This document shows, in pieces, positions 37,283-64,000 of a stretch of 64,000 nt of DNA (within the stretch, counting starts at the first letter, position 1; every line of letters begins with the position of its first letter). The DNA is from Tribonema minus (lineage: Eukaryota; Sar; Xanthophyceae; Tribonematales; Tribonemataceae), in the NCBI GenBank assembly GCA_017506865.1, contig JAFCMP010000549.1:545195-609194 (forward strand). The letters are read 5' to 3'. The translations under genes were made by a program, and so were the position numbers. A model generated the notes under the pieces. It was not told the DNA's origin and ran no database searches. It saw only the letters and a program-made list of their open reading frames with translations.

Positions 37283-38430
37283 GTGTACCCGAACGGCGTG
37301 TGGGATAGCTGCGCGTTGCTCTTGGCACAGCAAACCGGTGAGCGTATCAAAACCGAGAACTGTGAAAGCAGCGAGCAAGAAGTAGGCACGTCAACCTACA
37401 GCCTGTTCAATGAACTTCAACTTCAATCCCTCACGCAAGAAACCTCAGAACACTCTGAGGATCTCGCAGGAAGAAACCCAGGTCAGCCCGTAATGCTTGA
37501 GCGCGGCAAGTTTGTGCAATGGCAAGGGCGTGACTCTTTCTGCATGGCTGTGAAGAATAGCTTAGGAACGCAATGAACCTACTGTGCCAAACTCGCAAAG
37601 TTCATACCCCAGAACCAAGAATTCTTCATGCCAGAGCCTGATGGCCGTGCACTTTGCAGCCAGTCGTCCCAAGAGGGAAACTCAAAGTTCTGATCACTAG
37701 TGGGTCACCCCTGAGGCGCTGAAGCCCTTGGTGCTACGCCGTAGTGCGCATGTGTCACGACAACGGCAGTGCTCAGCATCCATCGACCGCCGCCACGCAC
37801 GCCGAGATGTTTGAGGACTTCTGTTGGCGCGGCATGGGAGCTGATACCCACGACTACGTGCACAGTTGCATAGCATGCCAAAGACCAGACCACAGACTTC
37901 AAATTGAAGTTGTGATGTCAGTGCTCAATGGCAGAATCTGTCATAGGCGAGGCGTTAAGCTCCAGGGCTGAGCGCATCCAAGCTCGTAACGACAAGATTC
38001 AACGCACCCTGCATGTAAGTGTAAGCGACTACGTATGGGTCAGAAAAGCCACCCTCTGAAGGACGCACGAGTGGCCTAGAGCGCTTCACCGGACCCTGGA
38101 GGCTGATATCACAGTGACTCAAGGCTGTCATTTCAATGTCAACTCAATGGCACGCGTGTGCGGCTCCATGATGCACACGTGGAAATCATGAAGCCGCATC
38201 ACCCTAGGCCTGCTAGACTGGTCAGCGACGGAGTGCATACCGCCGTAGACCCAGAGCAGCTGACAAGTGGCTGGCACGCGACGGTACCTCGTCTGAGTGG
38301 GTTCATGAGAGGGAGTTTGCAGAAAGCCGCTTCGTAGTGCCACCCTGGGTGCTAGATAGAAGTACTTTTTATGCCCCTATGAGATCCAACACGAAGGTCA
38401 CGTGCGTCGTACGCAGAGCGTCCTAGCCCA
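37283..38430 (+). mobile_element. Decayed Ty3/gypsy-like retrotransposon pol fragment
   Basis: Shreds of a retroelement polyprotein in the order expected for Ty3/gypsy. There is a QxxD-type spacer upstream of integrase (FVQWQGRDSFCMAV, near 37520-37560). Next comes an HHCC zinc-binding domain (H in CHDNGSAQHPS, Cys pair in CIACQR, 37750-37890). Then follow an integrase C-terminal SDYVWVRK segment (about 38018-38045) and FTGPW (38085-38095). Last is a segment like the end of pol or a chromodomain (HDAHVEIMKPHHPR, about 38170-38215). Frames change and stops interrupt. The catalytic DDE core that should follow the HHCC domain is missing. No LTRs were recognised. It is non-functional. Confidence 0.7.
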
Positions 38431-39063
38431 CGTGAGGACCGCTCCCTACCCGAAGGTTAAGCGTTGAAGCGCTCCCCTTGTGGCACTCAGGTGGTAAGGC
38501 AAATTTCAGGTGCTGATTCCACGACCACTGAGTACGTTTGGGGTCAAGTGCGCGACTTCGTACGATCTAGGTGGCGAGTGCGCTACACTGATGGAATTGG
38601 GAGGATCTAACATCGACACAGGTACGCTCGGGGAAGTCACTGTCACAAGGTGTGCGAGACAGGCTACGCAGGCTGGCTGGCGTGAACAAGCTGGCTTTAT
38701 TAAGGGCAGCACACCACCCGAGACCTCGCAAATCTCAGGCGTGTGATCAGAGCTGTGCTTCGACTCCCATCTGAAAGTGCTTCCACACCACTCGCCAGGA
38801 AATACCTCTGGGCCCCCATAGTTGCTGCAAAGAGGGGTTCCCGACCATAACTCAGCGACTCAACCCCCCCGCATGGCAAAATGTCGTATGGACATGCCTG
38901 ACAGTTTTGTGTACTACTGACTGCCACTGCTGCTGCTACACTGCCCCCTCCAACCGACCATGCGAATGCTGCATGGCAGTCAGCCAGCCCCCCCCCCCTA
39001 CTCCTCCCCCTACCCCCCACCCCCCAAGGCCTGGCTGCCCCCCTGCCCCCATCATGCTTGACA

Positions 39064-39065
<2 letters not shown>

Positions 39066-39101
<36 letters not shown>
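39066..39101 (+). repeat. (CAG)12 microsatellite
   Basis: Twelve perfect CAG units, preceded at 38990-39030 by C-rich low-complexity sequence. It lies just past the stop codon of the Fanzor fragment, in what would be its 3' UTR. Confidence 0.95.
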
Positions 39102-39102
<1 letters not shown>

Positions 39103-39119
39103 TGCAGCGCAGCAAGGCG

Positions 39120-41210
39120 CTAGCCGCCCCCAGGACGCCAGATATGCGCCTCTGAGGCCTGCCTGCCCATACCAGGGCCCCGGCAAAACTCGGGAGGACG
39201 CACCCCATACAGCATCTCCTCCACGCCGCACATGACAATGTTGGCGGCGCCGGAGTGATCGCGGTCAATGGCGCGCACATTGCACTGCGACTCAACGGGA
39301 ACCTCGGGTCGCGCGTTTGCACAACAAAAGACCCGAGATCCCAAGGCGAGGCGGTGCAGGGGTGCCCTATCCTGGGGGCACGTAATGGACGTTCGATGTT
39401 CATTGGTGAGGACCACAGGCGCCAGGGAGGCGAGGTGCCGGATCAGGCGCTTGCGCGGTATGGGCCCGCGGGAGCCACTGCCAAACTCCGCCTTGCCGAA
39501 GAAGACCACCTTCCGCACACTGGGGTCGGGTGGCCCCAGAATATCACGGGCCACCCATGCCACCGCCCGCTCCCTGGCGCGGTAGGCGTCAAACGTGCGT
39601 ATGCGGCGCGTATGGCTGAGGTAGTGGCGCGCGCGCACGGACAACGTCTGGTATGTCACCGTGGCATAGTTGGCGGCAGGTGCTCCGGGCCTGCGCAGGG
39701 AGGTCTCCGGCGTGAAAAGATTCTCCGCCGCGTCCAGCTGCGGGTCTCGCTTCCGGCACATCTTCCAATAGCGCTGCGAGTTCTTGGCGAGCGCCTCGTA
39801 CCTGGACGGCAAGGCAAGGGGCGGAGGGGCAGGGGGGCGGGGGGGATGAGCACCGCTTCATGATTGCTAAACTGGAACAGCACACCGCCAAGCTACTGAA
39901 AATCATACACACGCGTCATGCAAAATATCACTTCATGTTGCATCAGTCCGACCAGCTGCATCAGTGCATGCCATGCTGTTTACAGTAGCTGAGGGTGCGA
40001 TCTGTCCTCCCCAAGATGCATGAATACCATGTCACGCAAGTAGGTGTTGGCGCTGTGTTTGCTATATGCATCCATAATGCCCCGTGACTTGAACTTGCAA
40101 CAGCGCAGCGCAACATGACGTGCGTACATGTTTGCTGTGAATGCCGTGTATCTGTGACCGTAGCTGACTGCTGCACAACCACCCAAGTATCTGTAGCAGC
40201 ACATATCCGACGCTATGCATCGGCCAAGACTGCAGACCCCCTCAAGCAAGTGTCAAGTCAGTGCTCAACTTGAACTTCAGGTTCATGAAGAGGCAACCTT
40301 AGCACCTGCGCTGCTGCATGCCCCAAACCGCGATGGACCAGTGGAGGTAAAGAATGTTGATGGTGATCGGTCAACACTCACTTGAAGTCGGCTGTTTTGG
40401 TGTCCACAGCCGTGCGCTTCAAGTCTGCGGCCGTCAAGTCCGGGCTGACGCGCGCTCGCACGCTCACGGCGATGGACTTCTGCCCGGGGTCGACGCCGAT
40501 GGCCACGATGGTGGGACCATGCGGACCATAGGCTCTGCAGAGGGCAAAGCGTGCAACCATCTTTTAGTGCGTATCATCATCAGCATTAACAGACCTGCGT
40601 GAGTGCCAACCTTACCCCTACCCCTAGCCCTAACCCTAACCCTAACCCTATTCTTAATCCTGATTGCAAACCCAACCTATTACCATGCGTGCAGCAGCGG
40701 GTGGCTACAACGATCACTTGAGTGACAAGTTGAGTCATGTGTTCAAGCAACCAGGGTTACAATACCTGCCCACATACATTGCGCAATCATGCGACGGCAG
40801 CAATTGCCCCACAAAATTCAATGCAGATGCCACCGCAACTGTTTCAACATGCAAGCGTGTTACAGTCGCAGCTAGCATCACTGCGCCCACAGGCCAGCCT
40901 CACTGCAGCCATGGGATGCACAAAGTGTACAGCATACGCGTTGCATGAAGCGACCCACCAGTCACACACATTTGCCTCTTAAAGATTGAGTGCCATGCAC
41001 TCACCCTCCTGCCTGCTGGTCACGCTGGTCTTGGAGCAGCCAGTCAGGCAGCTGATGGACGCCGTCGAACAGGCCGCGCTCGTCCTGCAGGAGGTCCAGC
41101 TTCTCCGTCACGCTGCGGTACCCGCGCTTGCGCAGCTCCGCGACGCCTGTTGGCAGGCTGCCACCCTTGCCGTTCCGCCCCTTGACGGTCGCTACCAAGC
41201 CGACGCAGAC
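39120..41210 (-). CDS. Fanzor (eukaryotic TnpB-like RNA-guided nuclease), apparently 5'-truncated
   Basis: Exons on the minus strand: 41210-41005 (preceded by an acceptor), 40534-40382, 39801-39120 (TAG). Phases agree, giving about 346 residues. The RuvC-I motif is AIGVDPGQKS (Asp codon at 40489-40491). Downstream come the family's YxxLxKxSxRYW-like segment, KVVFFGKAEFGSGSRG, and NEHRTS at about 39390-39405, whose Glu sits at the alternative RuvC-II position described for Fanzors. RuvC-III is AIDRDHSGAANI (Asp codon at 39264-39266). Zinc-ribbon cysteines are irregular: the first pair reads CPQD, not CxxC. Known Fanzors carry several hundred residues before RuvC-I; here only about 80 are found and the LRR gene begins 500 bp away, so the N-terminal half is probably lost. 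It may be a pseudogene. Fanzors derive from transposons and use a guide RNA encoded beside the gene; none was identified. Confidence 0.8.
40617..40650 (-). repeat. Interstitial telomere-like tract next to a Fanzor exon
   Basis: Degenerate then perfect CCCTAA units in the intron between Fanzor exons 41210-41005 and 40534-40382. Confidence 0.85.
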
Positions 41211-41391
41211 CTGCAATGACGATTGGCGGAGCGCGCAATAAAGATCAACAGAGGTGAGCCCTGCTGAGCGGTGTGCGACGTGATGCTGGTGCACTACGTG
41301 CAAGATGCGCACGCGCACGCGCGGAACTGCTGGATACCATCGTTTTTGAATGCCCATGAACTACCAGCAGACAGCGGCAGAGCACAAATCT

Positions 41392-41394
<3 letters not shown>

Positions 41395-41423
<29 letters not shown>
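41395..41423 (+). repeat. 29-nt G run
   Basis: Uninterrupted run of 29 G about 185 bp upstream (on the minus strand) of the first readable Fanzor exon. It may mark a truncation point, or be a hard-to-sequence tract of uncertain true length. Confidence 0.9.
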
Positions 41424-41710
41424 TGGTATGGTGATCCTGCTTCAAGTGGCAAAACATACACGCTCGTGATTAAAGCTTGTGAGAATCGGGAACACGAACT
41501 TCCTCTTCAACTTCAACACGAAACGCCAGAACAAAGTGATATATCTAGATATACAGTGCTGGTTCGCTGGCAGTGCGCTGCTCGTCGCTGGTCCGCAGCG
41601 CCTGGCAGCTACCGCTCAGCGCCTCTTATCACGCTCAGAGCTCAACTCACATGCAGCCTGACAGCAGAGATTCTTCATAGTCTTTACTGACAGGTACTGG
41701 GCGCGGTGGC

Positions 41711-44700
41711 ATGCCAGGCATGGGGCAACTTTGTGGCCTAGATCCAGACGGCAACTTGCTGTCTGCTGTGGACAACAGAATTATACGCGGCGCGTGGAGG
41801 ACACTTGGCCCACTTCCTGATGGAGTCGGCAAATGCTACAGCATGGACCTGCACCACAAGCATTTGACCACGTTTACTGCCGAGGCATGCGAGTTCGATA
41901 GGGGCGAGGCTTCTGCGCCTGTTGGGCACATGGAACATATTATATACTTAAACCTCAGTCTTAACAGGCTCACGTCGTTGCAGTCCCTCGTGCAGCAGCC
42001 GCCGCTCGAATTTATGCTTGCTTTAGACTGCAGGGACAACATGCTGACGTCATTGTCAGGTGTGTCCAGCCTACGCCACCTGCAGTCTCTGAACGCCTGC
42101 AACAACAGCATTACCTCTATTGATGACACATGGGATCTGCCTGGAGCGTCAGACAGCAGCAGCCTGACGTGTCTGGACCTCAGGTACGATGGCCAAAGTG
42201 AACTCTCTAATTTCCCGCCCTAGTCTTTTGGCTGTGCAACATTGCATGACTTGTTGCACCGCAAACATCAATTTCTTTGATTCCTTACCGCTGTCTTCAA
42301 ATTGCTGCTTGGTTGTTGATGCAGCGAGAACAACTTGCAGACGCTGGACGGGCTGTGCAGCCCTGCGCTCGCCCGCCTGCGGTGCCTGAGTGTGCGGCAC
42401 AATGAGCTTTGCACTCTGCCGCCAACTTTCGGGGACCTCGATGTATTGGAGGAATTGGATGTGTCTGAGAATGCCATCACATCCGTGGCTGCCACTTACA
42501 AGATGCAGCATCTCAGAGTCCTCAACTGTGAGCACAACCGGTACGTCGAACGCTTGATCCTGAAAATGGGTTCACTTGCCGCTTGATATGCATATGCAGG
42601 TGCGATTCACATGCTATGTTCACTGCATCCCTCAAGCAAATAACCTCTGTGATGGAGTGCCACTAGCTCGATCAAAGTCCATTCATGTTTGGACATACTC
42701 CAAAGTACGCATTTCTTGATTTTGAGCCAGCACAGTGACTTCCAGCGCGCAGTGGCTTCATGTCATTGGAAATATTGGGGCACCCTTAGCTGTACCAAAG
42801 AAGAAATGCACACTACCTGTCTTACTCTCTCAACCAGGTAGCTAGTTGCCTCACATGCATTTATGCCTCCTTCACACTGTCATCATCAGTTCATGAGCCG
42901 TGTTGGGAAAGTGGCCACATGAGTCCAAGCTGTGCCAACGAAGACAATTTGAAAGGCTCGTGCCTAGCAAAGAATACTCAGGCTGGTCACTGAGCGGGAT
43001 GCTGAAGCCAGAGGCAATGTCCTGCTCCTCCCTCTGCAGCATGGCCGACCTGCAGGAGCTGATGTGCACCGTTGCCAGCATGCCTCAGCTGCAAACCCTG
43101 TCCACCACTGGCAACCCAGCAACATTGCCACCCGGCTTTGGTCACAAGCAGCATCTGCAGTTCATCGTCAACTGCGCGAGCTTGAGGACGCTTGATGGCC
43201 GGCCAGTCGATCGCGCTGCAACAGAGAAAACTGCCAGCGTGCTGTTGCGCGAACAGGCGATGGTCGATCTGGCGCAGAGCGTAGCCAAAGACTATCTTAG
43301 CGTGGTCAAGCAGGAGACACAAGCGTTGGAGCGGCGCCTGGTACTGCCAGTCAAAGAGCAAGCTGAGCTTCGAGCGGCCTATGAAAGGGTGTGCAGGAAG
43401 GCACAGGATGATTTAGGTGAGCTTTTCGGAACTGCTTGCGTGTCTTTCAATTGCATGTGCATATCATGCTTTGTTAAGTTGCCTTGCCTGTGAATGATCA
43501 CCAACCACGCATTGACTTCAAGACAAGATGAACTGTCCAAAGACTATTTCAAGGTGCCATACCGTAGCCAAAGTTTAATGCCCAGGTACAGCAGGCAGCT
43601 GTCATTGATGCGTTGCGCACATGCAATGTATCGGGGTGAAAAGCAGCATGCGCAGTGACCATAAACTGCATCACCAATGCACAGTGCTCCGACTGATGGT
43701 TCCATGTGCAATCTTCATGACTTCAATTGTCACAAACCGGCATGTCAGGCCTGCAGCCGCCGCAATGTATGGCTCAGTCAGCTTCAGAAGGCAAGCAGCA
43801 GAACACAACTTGAGCGACATGATTGCATGGTCCTGCAGAGTGGGGCCTGTGGGCATTGCGAAGCAGTCACATGTATTGCTTCTGAAGATGATACTAAGGC
43901 TACATTTCACTGCAAGGGGAAGGTATTTGTTGCACGCAGTGATACTAAGGCTAACATTTCACTGCAAGGGGAAGGTATTTGTTGCACGCAGGATTTTTTC
44001 CTCGGATCTTCTTATCTCCACACTGAAGTGCACACCTGCCTTGACATTATGCTACGTCGATCACGCTGTGCCGAGCGAAGCTGCTCGCTCATGTTGGCAA
44101 GCGGTGCGCAGGTCAAATCTATATAGTGTTGTGTTGTGCTTGTGAGCTCTAGGCGTTTTCTTGATTGATCAGGTGTGGTCTCAAAATGCTGCATAAAAAC
44201 ATCATAGGTAGTCCACATCTGTACATCGACAAGCAGCCTCTAACCGCATCTCGTCCCCAATGCCCCCCCCAGTAGCAGCTTCCAAGTAGCACCAACTGCC
44301 ATTTCTGAGTGACAGCGCGCACTGAGGAATCTGTTGTCATGAAATGCCTGAAATTGCACTATACCTGCTGACAGTTCGGATTTGAGTTGATTAAATTTGT
44401 CAAATGCATACATTGTCATCGCAACATACTGACTCTGTGGTGTGTCGTGTTGCTCGACTGTAGAGCAAACGCTCGCCCTCGCAGCAGAGGCAGCTGTGGT
44501 GCCCAGATCTGCAACCGCTGAGGCACACAAGCTGCCAGCAGACTCAAGGGCACCCCTCCAGCAGGCTGGGTCTAATGAGGTGACGTTGGCAAGCAAACCT
44601 GCGGTGCACCTGAAGCTGTCACCAGAAGCGGTCACCAGTTTTGAAAGGAAGCTGGCACAGCAACACATACCCCTGCATCGGCGACATGAGGTCGAAGATG

Positions 44701-61669: not shown

Positions 61670-63328
61670 TCCCCGTCTAGTCGCGCTGCGAGGCCCATGT
61701 AGAGCCAACCAAGGGGGGGCCTTAAACAACGTACCCCCCGTCTTGCACGCGCGTGGGTGGCTGCTGTCGCATACCGTACATCGCATGACGAATACTGCAG
61801 CAGTTCCGCTGCTGCAAAGCAGGCCATTGAATGGACGTTCTGCAGCTCCTGCTCAAGCACGCCTGATTCAATGGCATCATTATGATGATGCCAGCAAAAA
61901 ATCAAGAATGCAAAGCTTTGGTAGCGACGGTCGGACCGGTCCCTTCTCCAAGAGGGGACCAGCTGGATCAAGAGTGAGTGCTGCAATATTGCGCAATCTC
62001 TTTATGAATCCAGGTCGAAATCTGCCAGTGAGTCATGGTTGCCACCAAATACTACGGTCGCCCCCCACCCCGTGCGCCCCCCCTCAGGCTGATCAGTCCG
62101 CGGACAGCACGTGCCACTGGCTGAGCTAAAAAAGCGCTTCAAGCCTTTGCAAGGTGCAATCCCAGGCACCAGTCCATGTGCACAGAGTGGTGCTGGCAGG
62201 TTCTTCTTGCTTTAGAAAAGTATCAGCCCAAGGCAAAGAGTGAGGGATGCCTTGAAGTTCCTTGGGCAAGTACTACTAGTAGATCGATCCTACAAATCTT
62301 ATATTATTGCTGCTGTCCACCAGGTCGGTGCATTCAGCTTGCACGCTTGAGATCTGCGATGACATAGCAGCAGGCCGCCGGAGTGCTGGCGTTCATGGTA
62401 CCAGTTGCCACACAATGCCTGTCGCTCATTGACGGTGTAGGGCCGGAGTGGTGCGAGGCGATCCCTTCCGCTGTGCTATAGTGCAGTGTTTGCGCTGGGC
62501 AAGTTGCAGGTTGAAAGGCATCCATGTGTGCTTGATCGTTGCACTACTAGTACAACAGAAGACTAGAGATGATTGGGCATAAACTATCTACGGCATGTCT
62601 ACGCACAAGTGCCACCTGTGTGCGTTCAAAGTGAAAACCTAACCCTAAACTCTTTCGCTGGCAATTCCAGCTGCAGCCGTCCTGCCGAGCCCGGCAGCGC
62701 GTACACGTAACCACGCCTGTCCGACAACATCACGACAACATCATACGACAACATCATAGCTCCTGCCTAGTCCTGCAGGGCAGCTGATTGCCACGAACAG
62801 AACATCAACTTCCAGCGGCCAGTTACATAACATTCTTAGAACTGTCCTCGGTCAACTCCACAGCGCGCAACAGCCGATCCTATCTCTGCTCACACAGCCT
62901 TCACACAACCCACTGCAGCAAAACTGTGCACCTAGTGCTTGTCTCGCACATCGGAGGTAAGAGCACGCTGGGCCATCAGGGCATTGATTGGCCTGCTCTC
63001 GATGTCAGTGATGCAGCAGCGAAATCTGCGTGCATCCTCATCCCTTGCCCTCGACCTCCCTCTTGCGCTGCCACGCCAGGTTGCAGATGGAGAGCGCAGC
63101 TGCACGAGAGCGAATCGCGCTGCCAGCAAGCGATGCCAACCGGACAAACGAGCTGCAATCAGACGCCGCAGCGGTACCCTCGCTGGCATTCAAAGGTCAG
63201 CCCCTGCTCGAAAACTCTTGTAATGAAGACCCTCGCAGGCTGTCTGCTAGTGTCACGTGACAAATGCGGCTTGTACAAAGCTGCAACAAGGTTAGTGCTT
63301 GTTGATGCTCGGTCGTGATCGCTTAGTT
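61670..63328. other. Subtelomeric region
   Basis: About 1.65 kb before the telomere. One splice-bounded open segment is visible at about 63086-63199 (MESAAARERIALPASDAN), with a preceding CAG and a following GTCAGC, but no family or gene model. A short CCCTAA tract lies at 62638-62650. Nothing else is supported. Confidence 0.45.
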
Positions 63329-64000
63329 TGGGGTAGGGTTAGGTTAGGGGTTAGGGTTAGGGTTAGGGTTAGGGTTAGGGTTAGGTTATAGGGTTAGGGT
63401 TAGGGTTAGGGTTAGGTTATAGGTGTAGGGTTAGGGTTTTAGGGTTAGGGTTAGGGTTAGGGTTAGGGTTAGGGTTAGGGTTAGGGTTAGGGTTAGGGTT
63501 AGGGTTAGGGTTAGGGTTAGGGTTAGGGTTAGGGTTAGGGTTAGGGTTAGGGTTAGGGTTAGGGTTAGGGTTAGGGTTAGGGTTAGGGTTAGGGTTAGGG
63601 TTAGGGTTAGGGTTAGGGTTAGGGTTAGGGTTAGGGTTAGGGTTAGGGTTAGGGTTAGGGTTAGGGTTAGGGTTAGGGTTAGGGTTAGGGTTAGGGTTAG
63701 GGTTAGGGTTAGGGTTAGGGTTAGGGTTAGGGTTAGGGTTAGGGTTAGGGTTAGGGTTAGGGTTAGGGTTAGGGTTAGGGTTAGGGTTAGGGTTAGGGTT
63801 AGGGTTAGGGTTAGGGTTAGGGTTAGGGTTAGGGTTAGGGTTAGGGTTAGGGTTAGGGTTAGGGTTAGGGTTAGGGTTAGGGTTAGGTTAGGGTTAGGGT
63901 TAGGGTTAGGTTAGGGTTAGGTTAGGGTTAGGGTTAGGGTAGGGTTAGGGTTGGTCTAGGGTTAGGTTAGGGTTAGGTTAGGGTTAGGGGTTAGGGTAGG
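63329..64000 (+). repeat. Terminal telomere array, TTAGGG type
   Basis: About 110 tandem TTAGGG units reaching the end of the window, with the G-rich strand toward the end. The proximal 110 bp and the distal 120 bp hold variants (TTAGG, TTAGGGG, TTATAGGG, TAGGG); the middle, about 63441-63880, is almost perfect. Confidence 0.98.

Follow-up and report, generated by a model that had tools for sequence, protein, structure and literature searches.

The window, a stretch of 64,000 nucleotides, carries on its minus strand what is very probably a member of a nuclear mobile element family with a spliced Fanzor1-like gene, truncated at its 5' side and most likely dead. Fanzors are eukaryotic proteins related to the enzymes with which bacteria cut DNA under RNA guidance. 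On its own, this copy is an ordinary broken member of its family. The wider interest lies in the genome around it, since this single genome has intronless Fanzors on contigs that also carry viral capsid genes and, separately, a spliced, mobile and truncating family with a defined right end. This opens two questions to testing. One is a possible origin of nuclear Fanzors in endogenous viruses, the other how widely Fanzor1 elements spread one-endedly from their right end, as has been described in a green alga. Published work (PMC3627910) already covers algal and viral Fanzors, Fanzor genes with introns and elements that move in the one-ended manner, and what is new here is the family itself, within an already known kind of element; a literature search joining Fanzor with cryptophyte returned nothing.

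Gene model and catalytic motifs

The gene is read from three exons, designated A, B and C in the sense direction (Table 1). Predicted GT-AG joining of these exons yields a single open frame of 346 residues plus a stop, in which the phases agree. This bears out the three phase-consistent exons of the first-pass annotation at the level of the splice sites, their joining in RNA being a prediction. On the minus strand, with the splice border marked by a slash, exon A lies between the acceptor CATTGCAG/GTCTGC and the donor GG/GTGAGT, exon B lies between CTCTGCAG/AGCC and AA/GTGAGT, and exon C runs from CCGTCCAG/GTACG to the stop codon TAG. Two acceptors were tried for exon B, and an open join came from only one of them. 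Along the joined reading follow GVDPG (D84), NEHRTS (E254), the zinc-site residue C261 and DRDHSGAAN (D301), so that RuvC-I, the rearranged Glu and RuvC-III do appear in the order and spacing of Fanzor proteins, as first claimed. All three catalytic acids are retained, and all three exons are without stops.

Table 1. Features of the Fanzor copy and its immediate flank, in window coordinates
Feature	Position	Strand	Remarks
High-copy repeat	37422-38690		Cut off; 7 bp separate it from the right end of the element
3' noncoding part of element	38698..39119	minus	CTG/G-rich tract at 39066-39114; right end at 38698, sense ..GTGTGCTGCCCTTAATA
Subterminal hairpin	38710..38745	minus	Adjoins the right end; z -1.72 in the window copy
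Exon C	39120..39801	minus	Remaining RuvC with rearranged Glu (NEHRTS), zinc site (CPQD..C..C) and RuvC-III (DRDHSGAAN)
Stop codon TAG of exon C	39120-39122	minus	
Intron B/C	39802..40381	minus	DNA matches to C86b, C93 and C528
Exon B	40382..40534	minus	RuvC-I, GVDPGQKS with catalytic Asp and DPG signature; splice model
Intron A/B	40535..41004	minus	Intron DNA matched also in C93 and C528
Exon A	41005..41210	minus	Just N-terminal of RuvC-I, reads ..LPTGVAELRKRGYRSV..DERGLF..; splice model
Upstream intron remnant	41211..41475	minus	Homology to C528 fades near 41475, the approximate 5' break

We compared the joined reading with two published descriptions, each taken from an excerpt of its source. 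Bao and Jurka (2013, PMC3627910) give the motif of the Fanzor/TnpB superfamily as D-X(125,275)-[TS][TS], with a C4 zinc finger after [TS][TS]-X-X and then X(5,50)-RD. In the window copy, X is 172, from the Asp of GVDPG to the TS pair in NEHRTS, and six residues separate the last zinc-site Cys from RD; the C4 zinc finger is not there, its first part reading CPQD. Yoon et al. (2023) distinguish Fanzor from TnpB by DPG at RuvC-I and a Glu six residues ahead of the zinc-site Cys, and the window copy has both, with six residues between E254 and C261. Their search expression also demands CxxC and 120-160 residues from DPG to E; here CxxC is absent and the D to E spacing is 169 residues. Since the other motif features and the homology hold despite the failure of the zinc finger, we class the gene as a Fanzor homologue whose zinc site is altered.

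The alteration is common to the spliced lineage. After repeated rows and rows without that site were excluded, the second zinc-site Cys was absent in all 17 distinct spliced-lineage copies, being replaced by Asp in 15 (the window copy included), by Val in L062 and by Glu in L059, and it was present in all five intronless sequences. At two places beside the catalytic Glu, N134 and H136 in the numbering of exon C, the window copy departs from the other 11 aligned rows, which carry D and F/Y there. An N at the first of these two places is also found in the intronless L037, and N134 therefore need not signify loss.

A family of relatives in the same genome

Relatives were sought in the window's own genome (158 Mb, 554 contigs), from which every relative described here comes. 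Exon C has at least 125 matches there (150 of 161 candidates scored), and the closest other copy among those scored is stop-free and 86% identical over the whole query. Exons A and B together have 18 matches, counting the window's own; exon B is matched at near-equal limits (query residues 67-76 to 118-119 of 119) in four further contigs, C93, C86, C246 and C51. At the DNA level, exon A together with its upstream sequence is 98% identical to C479 and 79% identical to C528.

The genome also holds four intronless ORFs of 943, 983, 922 and 938 aa, measured from stop to stop (L039, L041, L042 and L043), that match exons A, B and C in order at 34-51% identity. Their matches to exon C have E-values of 1e-25 to 2e-31, and those to exons A and B are weak (E 3e-5 to 0.5); exon A, for instance, corresponds to residues 588-627 of the 943-aa ORF with an E-value of 0.014.

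Comparison with protein families and structures gave weaker signals. The first-pass annotation had proposed a profile search, and it turned out in two ways: a single-sequence search with exon C gave a weak match to Pfam PF07282 under the cut-off (E 0.0038) and no match in the PDB, whereas a profile of 12 relatives led to eight PDB sequences at E≤1, all weak, the best with an E-value of 0.0085. By name, seven of these eight are TnpB, Fanzor or Cas12f, and one is a 'Transposase'. When the profile was built from the four full-length intronless ORFs, two of its four PDB matches were TnpB-like, and L041, one of three intronless ORFs scanned, passed the cut-off of Pfam TNB (27.2 vs 26.3 bits). To judge by these alignments, we regard the PDB profile matches as individually weak and jointly convincing for Fanzor homology. 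Motifs, genome-wide family, intronless ORFs and TnpB-like profile matches all agree with the Fanzor identity first proposed, which we consider supported at the sequence level, and length and setting suggest Fanzor1 instead of Fanzor2.

Three Fanzor1 proteins of solved structure are among the weak matches of the family profile: GtFz1 of Guillardia theta (9cer, E 0.02), PpFz1 of Parasitella (9cf0, E 0.43) and SpuFz1 of Spizellomyces (8gkh, E 0.64). Like them, the window copy shows RuvC with a rearranged Glu and an RD motif. According to excerpts of the respective sources, the zinc finger of SpuFz1 is of the CCCC type (PMC10432273), unlike the family copies here, which are without one Cys, and the third catalytic Asp of GtFz1 is replaced by Asn (PMC11423790), unlike that of the window copy, which is retained.

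Loss of the N-terminal half

The window copy has only intron sequence upstream of exon A, shared with C528 up to about position 41475. No upstream coding exon or start was found for it, and its reading opens at a splice acceptor inside an intron of the element. By comparison with the intronless ORFs, the N-terminal half of a Fanzor was not found in the window, as had been noted before, and this half turned up at a sister locus on C86. Here, colinear blocks match residues ~91-486 of the 943-aa ORF and extend up to residue 636 of the 983-aa ORF. The blocks lie in order upstream of the RuvC exons and are stop-free; singly, they are short and mostly weak (E 0.1 to about 1e-8). The search for full-length relatives recommended by the first-pass annotation was thus productive on two counts, with four long intronless ORFs (922-983 aa) and, at C86, stretches of the missing half. 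Because C86 has the missing half and the window copy runs only into intron, we take the window copy to be 5'-truncated; that it is a naturally short Fanzor is ruled out by the N-terminal half at C86.

Right end and copy types

On the other side, the element has a defined terminus. The right end of the window copy, at 38698, agrees with a family terminus, ..TGCCCTTAATA, with the hairpin inside it. Five copies end in this way, which we call type II: the window copy, C86b, C86c, C513 and the C4 copy at 45.6 kb. Another 13 copies (type I) have the common right end ..ATGCCCTT(A/G)ATA, whose terminal bases are common with type II: C86a, C544, C108, C521, C335, C161, C1, C4 (at 7.6 kb), C54, C126, C379, C516 and C539. 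We had also considered that 38698-39119 might be part of another element only, and rejected this because types I and II have in common both their terminal bases and the CAG/C-rich tract next to the Fanzor stop. The exact right-end pattern occurs 15 times in the genome, versus none for a reversed control; the right ends of C528 and C93 deviate.

In the 13 type I copies the 5' starts differ, save in C126 and C539, which have common flanks and are probably one insertion; in both, an unrelated stretch sits between two homologous pieces. The start of C521 falls at or past the edge of the piece that was read. Candidate target duplications of 9-14 bp were found in five of the 13 (C161, C544, C54 and C126/C539), probably representing four insertions. 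All of them start with ATA and lie at the 5' truncation point or at most about 15 bp from it, and for the remaining eight none was found at that point. Because the right end closes with the same ATA with which the duplications open, its exact position may be off by up to 3 bases. The type II copy on C4 has a candidate duplication of 10 bp. None is convincing for C86a or for the window copy, where the best candidate, at 42025, is off the break and contains one mismatch.

Folded as DNA, the last 55 bases of type I form a hairpin of ten pairs (z -3.10 in C86a and -1.56 in a second copy), and those of type II form a different one (z -1.72 in the window copy and -0.57 in a second copy). Folded as RNA, the right ends gave a consensus of 16 pairs, three of them changed on both sides, at an energy of -7.5, a signal not strong enough for a guide RNA to be proposed. 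In the search for the left end of a full-length element, C516 and C2 came up, as did shorter parts of the C86 stretch, with no start in common, and the other end of the element has no convincing copy that would make a terminal inverted repeat.

As a separate observation, two of the type II copies, C86c and C513, have the Fanzor replaced by an antisense ORF, at C86:56485-56915 (L047) and C513:760560-761731 (L048, L050). This ORF begins at the CAG repeat and has, by eye, a coiled-coil look; C86 and C513 are 79% identical here over 885 bp.

A proposed mode of spread

Extrapolating from the family, we propose that a parent of full length, for which C86a would be an example if it is intact, would encode an RNA-guided nuclease, the guide RNA of which would derive from the right end of the element, as in studied Fanzors and TnpBs. 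Copying would begin at the right end and would often stop short; many copies, including that in the window, would therefore be without the N-terminal RNA-binding half and unable to act as nucleases. The best analogue is the one-ended rolling-circle (Helitron2-like) transposition proposed for CRe-1, CRe-2 and CRe-3. In these Fanzor1 elements of Chlamydomonas reinhardtii, as described in PMC3627910, the genes are spliced, the 3' ends are intact and bear a hairpin, the 5' sides are often truncated and the target duplications vary in length; this set of traits is explained there by transposition of this kind. The present family likewise consists of spliced nuclear Fanzors in an alga, with truncated 5' sides, an intact 3' end, variable duplications and a 3' hairpin, so that the fixed 3' end, the 3' hairpin and the 5' truncation of a Helitron2-type Fanzor1 are all found here.

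There are also differences. The right end here is ..CCCTTAATA, unlike that of CRe-1 to CRe-3; the four duplications begin with ATA and are without a preceding TTTT, whereas TTTT stands before the duplication in the CRe elements as described in that excerpt. The host is probably of another algal group, and the likeness set out here is one between features of the elements. Also unlike the situation for CRe-1 to CRe-3, a link to a Helitron was not found: the genome has 15 matches to Helitron Rep domains, and eight stretches around five Rep loci, in which the Helitron ends themselves are unmapped, contained no convincing copy of the Fanzor right end, the nearest being a single loose match in L069, two edits away, and short matches of low score in L070. 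For the window copy in particular, the search for a target duplication was negative, and the window does not contain the far half of the repeat interrupted at the copy's right end. The 5' part may hence have been lost in a later deletion instead of through one-ended transposition; we consider such a deletion on the 5' side likely.

As a side observation, the Helitrons include a family whose Rep-bearing ORFs reach 2373 aa and lie on C104, C26, C19, C111, C342, C138 and C519, several of them near contig ends; C104 matches C26 at 99% identity over 3.3 kb.

Weighing of alternative explanations

That the ORF arose by chance, or that a gene of another kind was mistaken for a Fanzor, would fit the weak or empty single-sequence searches of Pfam and the PDB, yet this has practically no probability, having already been refuted by the family evidence: the relatives across the genome, the exon B limits repeated in four other contigs, the exon-by-exon agreement with four long intronless ORFs, the TnpB-like profile matches and a dN/dS of 0.23-0.31 in all eight comparisons of the window's exon C with relatives. 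The first-pass annotation had left the choice between a dead copy and a domesticated short form, and of these the dead copy fits better and the domesticated form less well. In the latter case, a host promoter would drive a short Fanzor whose RuvC and zinc-site half was kept for a new role, which would agree with the open state of exons A, B and C and the three catalytic acids. It would also agree with the changes in exon C since C86b: polarised with the type I copy C86a as outgroup, 13 changes fall on the window branch, nine synonymous and four nonsynonymous (P 0.001 under neutrality), a degree of constraint that argues against the dead copy in that it is unexpected if the copy has long been dead. 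However, this branch covers time in an active ancestor, and the C86b branch is similar (13 synonymous and 11 nonsynonymous of 24 changes, P 0.003). Read from substitution counts, the two branches point to constraint on the lineage, part of it presumably exerted in active ancestors. The comparison with C479, in which five of six differences over exon A and its upstream sequence fall inside the exon, does not suggest constraint. Considering also that no upstream exon or start was found for the domesticated form, which would have to be read from an acceptor in an element intron, we deem it quite improbable. We prefer the dead copy because N-terminal stretches are present at C86, because the family combines variable 5' cuts with a constant 3' end, and because no upstream coding exon was found for the window copy, which is cut inside an intron.

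For the spread of the family, the main rival to one-ended transposition is LINE-type copying, in which unspliced Fanzor transcripts would be reverse-transcribed. A fixed 3' end, 5' truncation and short duplications are marks of target-primed reverse transcription as well, and both the truncations and duplications varying from 9 to 14 bp are observed here. Yet the copies retain their introns, in the copies inspected the common end passes into the flank without an evident A-rich or microsatellite tail, and the terminal hairpin is a better fit to rolling-circle ends. We therefore rate LINE-type copying as an unlikely alternative to one-ended transposition.

Intronless relatives and giant-virus DNA

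The intronless Fanzors on C90, C179, C112 and C346 have the same order of the three stretches as the window copy and are 34-40% identical to its exon C. Unlike the window copy, they have a matched ORF without introns, all four zinc-site Cys and about 30-40 more residues ahead of the VVFFG motif; unlike the copies with an exact right end, which cluster near contig ends, they are located inside contigs. Matches to the major capsid protein of NCLDV, found in ten places in all, are present on the intronless Fanzor contigs C90, C179, C112 and C21 and were not found on C346 and C68. Since capsid genes thus accompany some of these Fanzors but not others, viral descent of the nuclear Fanzors is only suggested; the long intronless ORFs on all six contigs likewise suggest integrated giant-virus DNA with many Fanzors. 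Relatives in viral contigs of IMG/VR were sought with two alignments, which gave 14 and 41 pattern matches, none of them confirmed.

One joint reading of these data would be that the spliced Fanzor lineage of this probable chlorophyll a/c alga came from giant-virus Fanzors that are still there, in intronless form, in its genome, gained introns, exchanged a zinc-site Cys for Asp and spread through subtelomeres in a one-ended manner from the guide-RNA end, some truncated copies perhaps being kept as short proteins. We offer this as speculation and consider it unlikely.

Genomic setting and host

As first annotated, the gene lies about 23 kb from a telomere: a telomere array occupies 63326-63997, 22-24 kb away. 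Telomere-like (AACCCT)n sequence also occurs as a tract at 40608-40650, within intron A/B, and again at 2705, 20200, 33040 and 46156. Copies with an exact right end cluster near contig ends. The median distance of the 15 such right ends from the contig end is 36 kb, and their mean normalised end distance is smaller than in all of 100,000 uniform draws; with one copy per contig (13), it falls below all of 200,000 draws. In reading these figures, it should be considered that some contig ends are possibly assembly breaks (round sizes such as 750000), that the window's contig ends in a real telomere array, and that the contrast set consists of 10 intronless positions picked by hand from the matches.

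The transposon surroundings described earlier are confirmed by the high-copy repeat that abuts the element, which by eye is perhaps a gypsy-like retroelement. In C442 and C35 the repeat runs on past the point of the cut and must thus be interrupted in the window, within which its far half was not found. Just past the 5' break, at 41681-43493 on the plus strand, lie frames that by eye resemble leucine-rich repeats.

The algal host that had been supposed agrees with 92 light-harvesting matches in the genome. One light-harvesting exon is closest to ACP/CAC chains and another to FCP chains (long 9vfj chains with non-passing single stretches were set aside), which we take to be cryptophyte and diatom chlorophyll a/c proteins, respectively; the host is probably a chlorophyll a/c alga, not a green one.

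Finally, C-terminal Fanzor fragments occur in this genome as convergent inverted pairs, about 15-32 bases apart, at C108:243707-244986, C289:21394-22673, C356:13529-14806, C124:39655-40632 and C546:533436-534136. The same pair recurs in three contigs, and fold-back deletion or palindromic insertion are possible origins.
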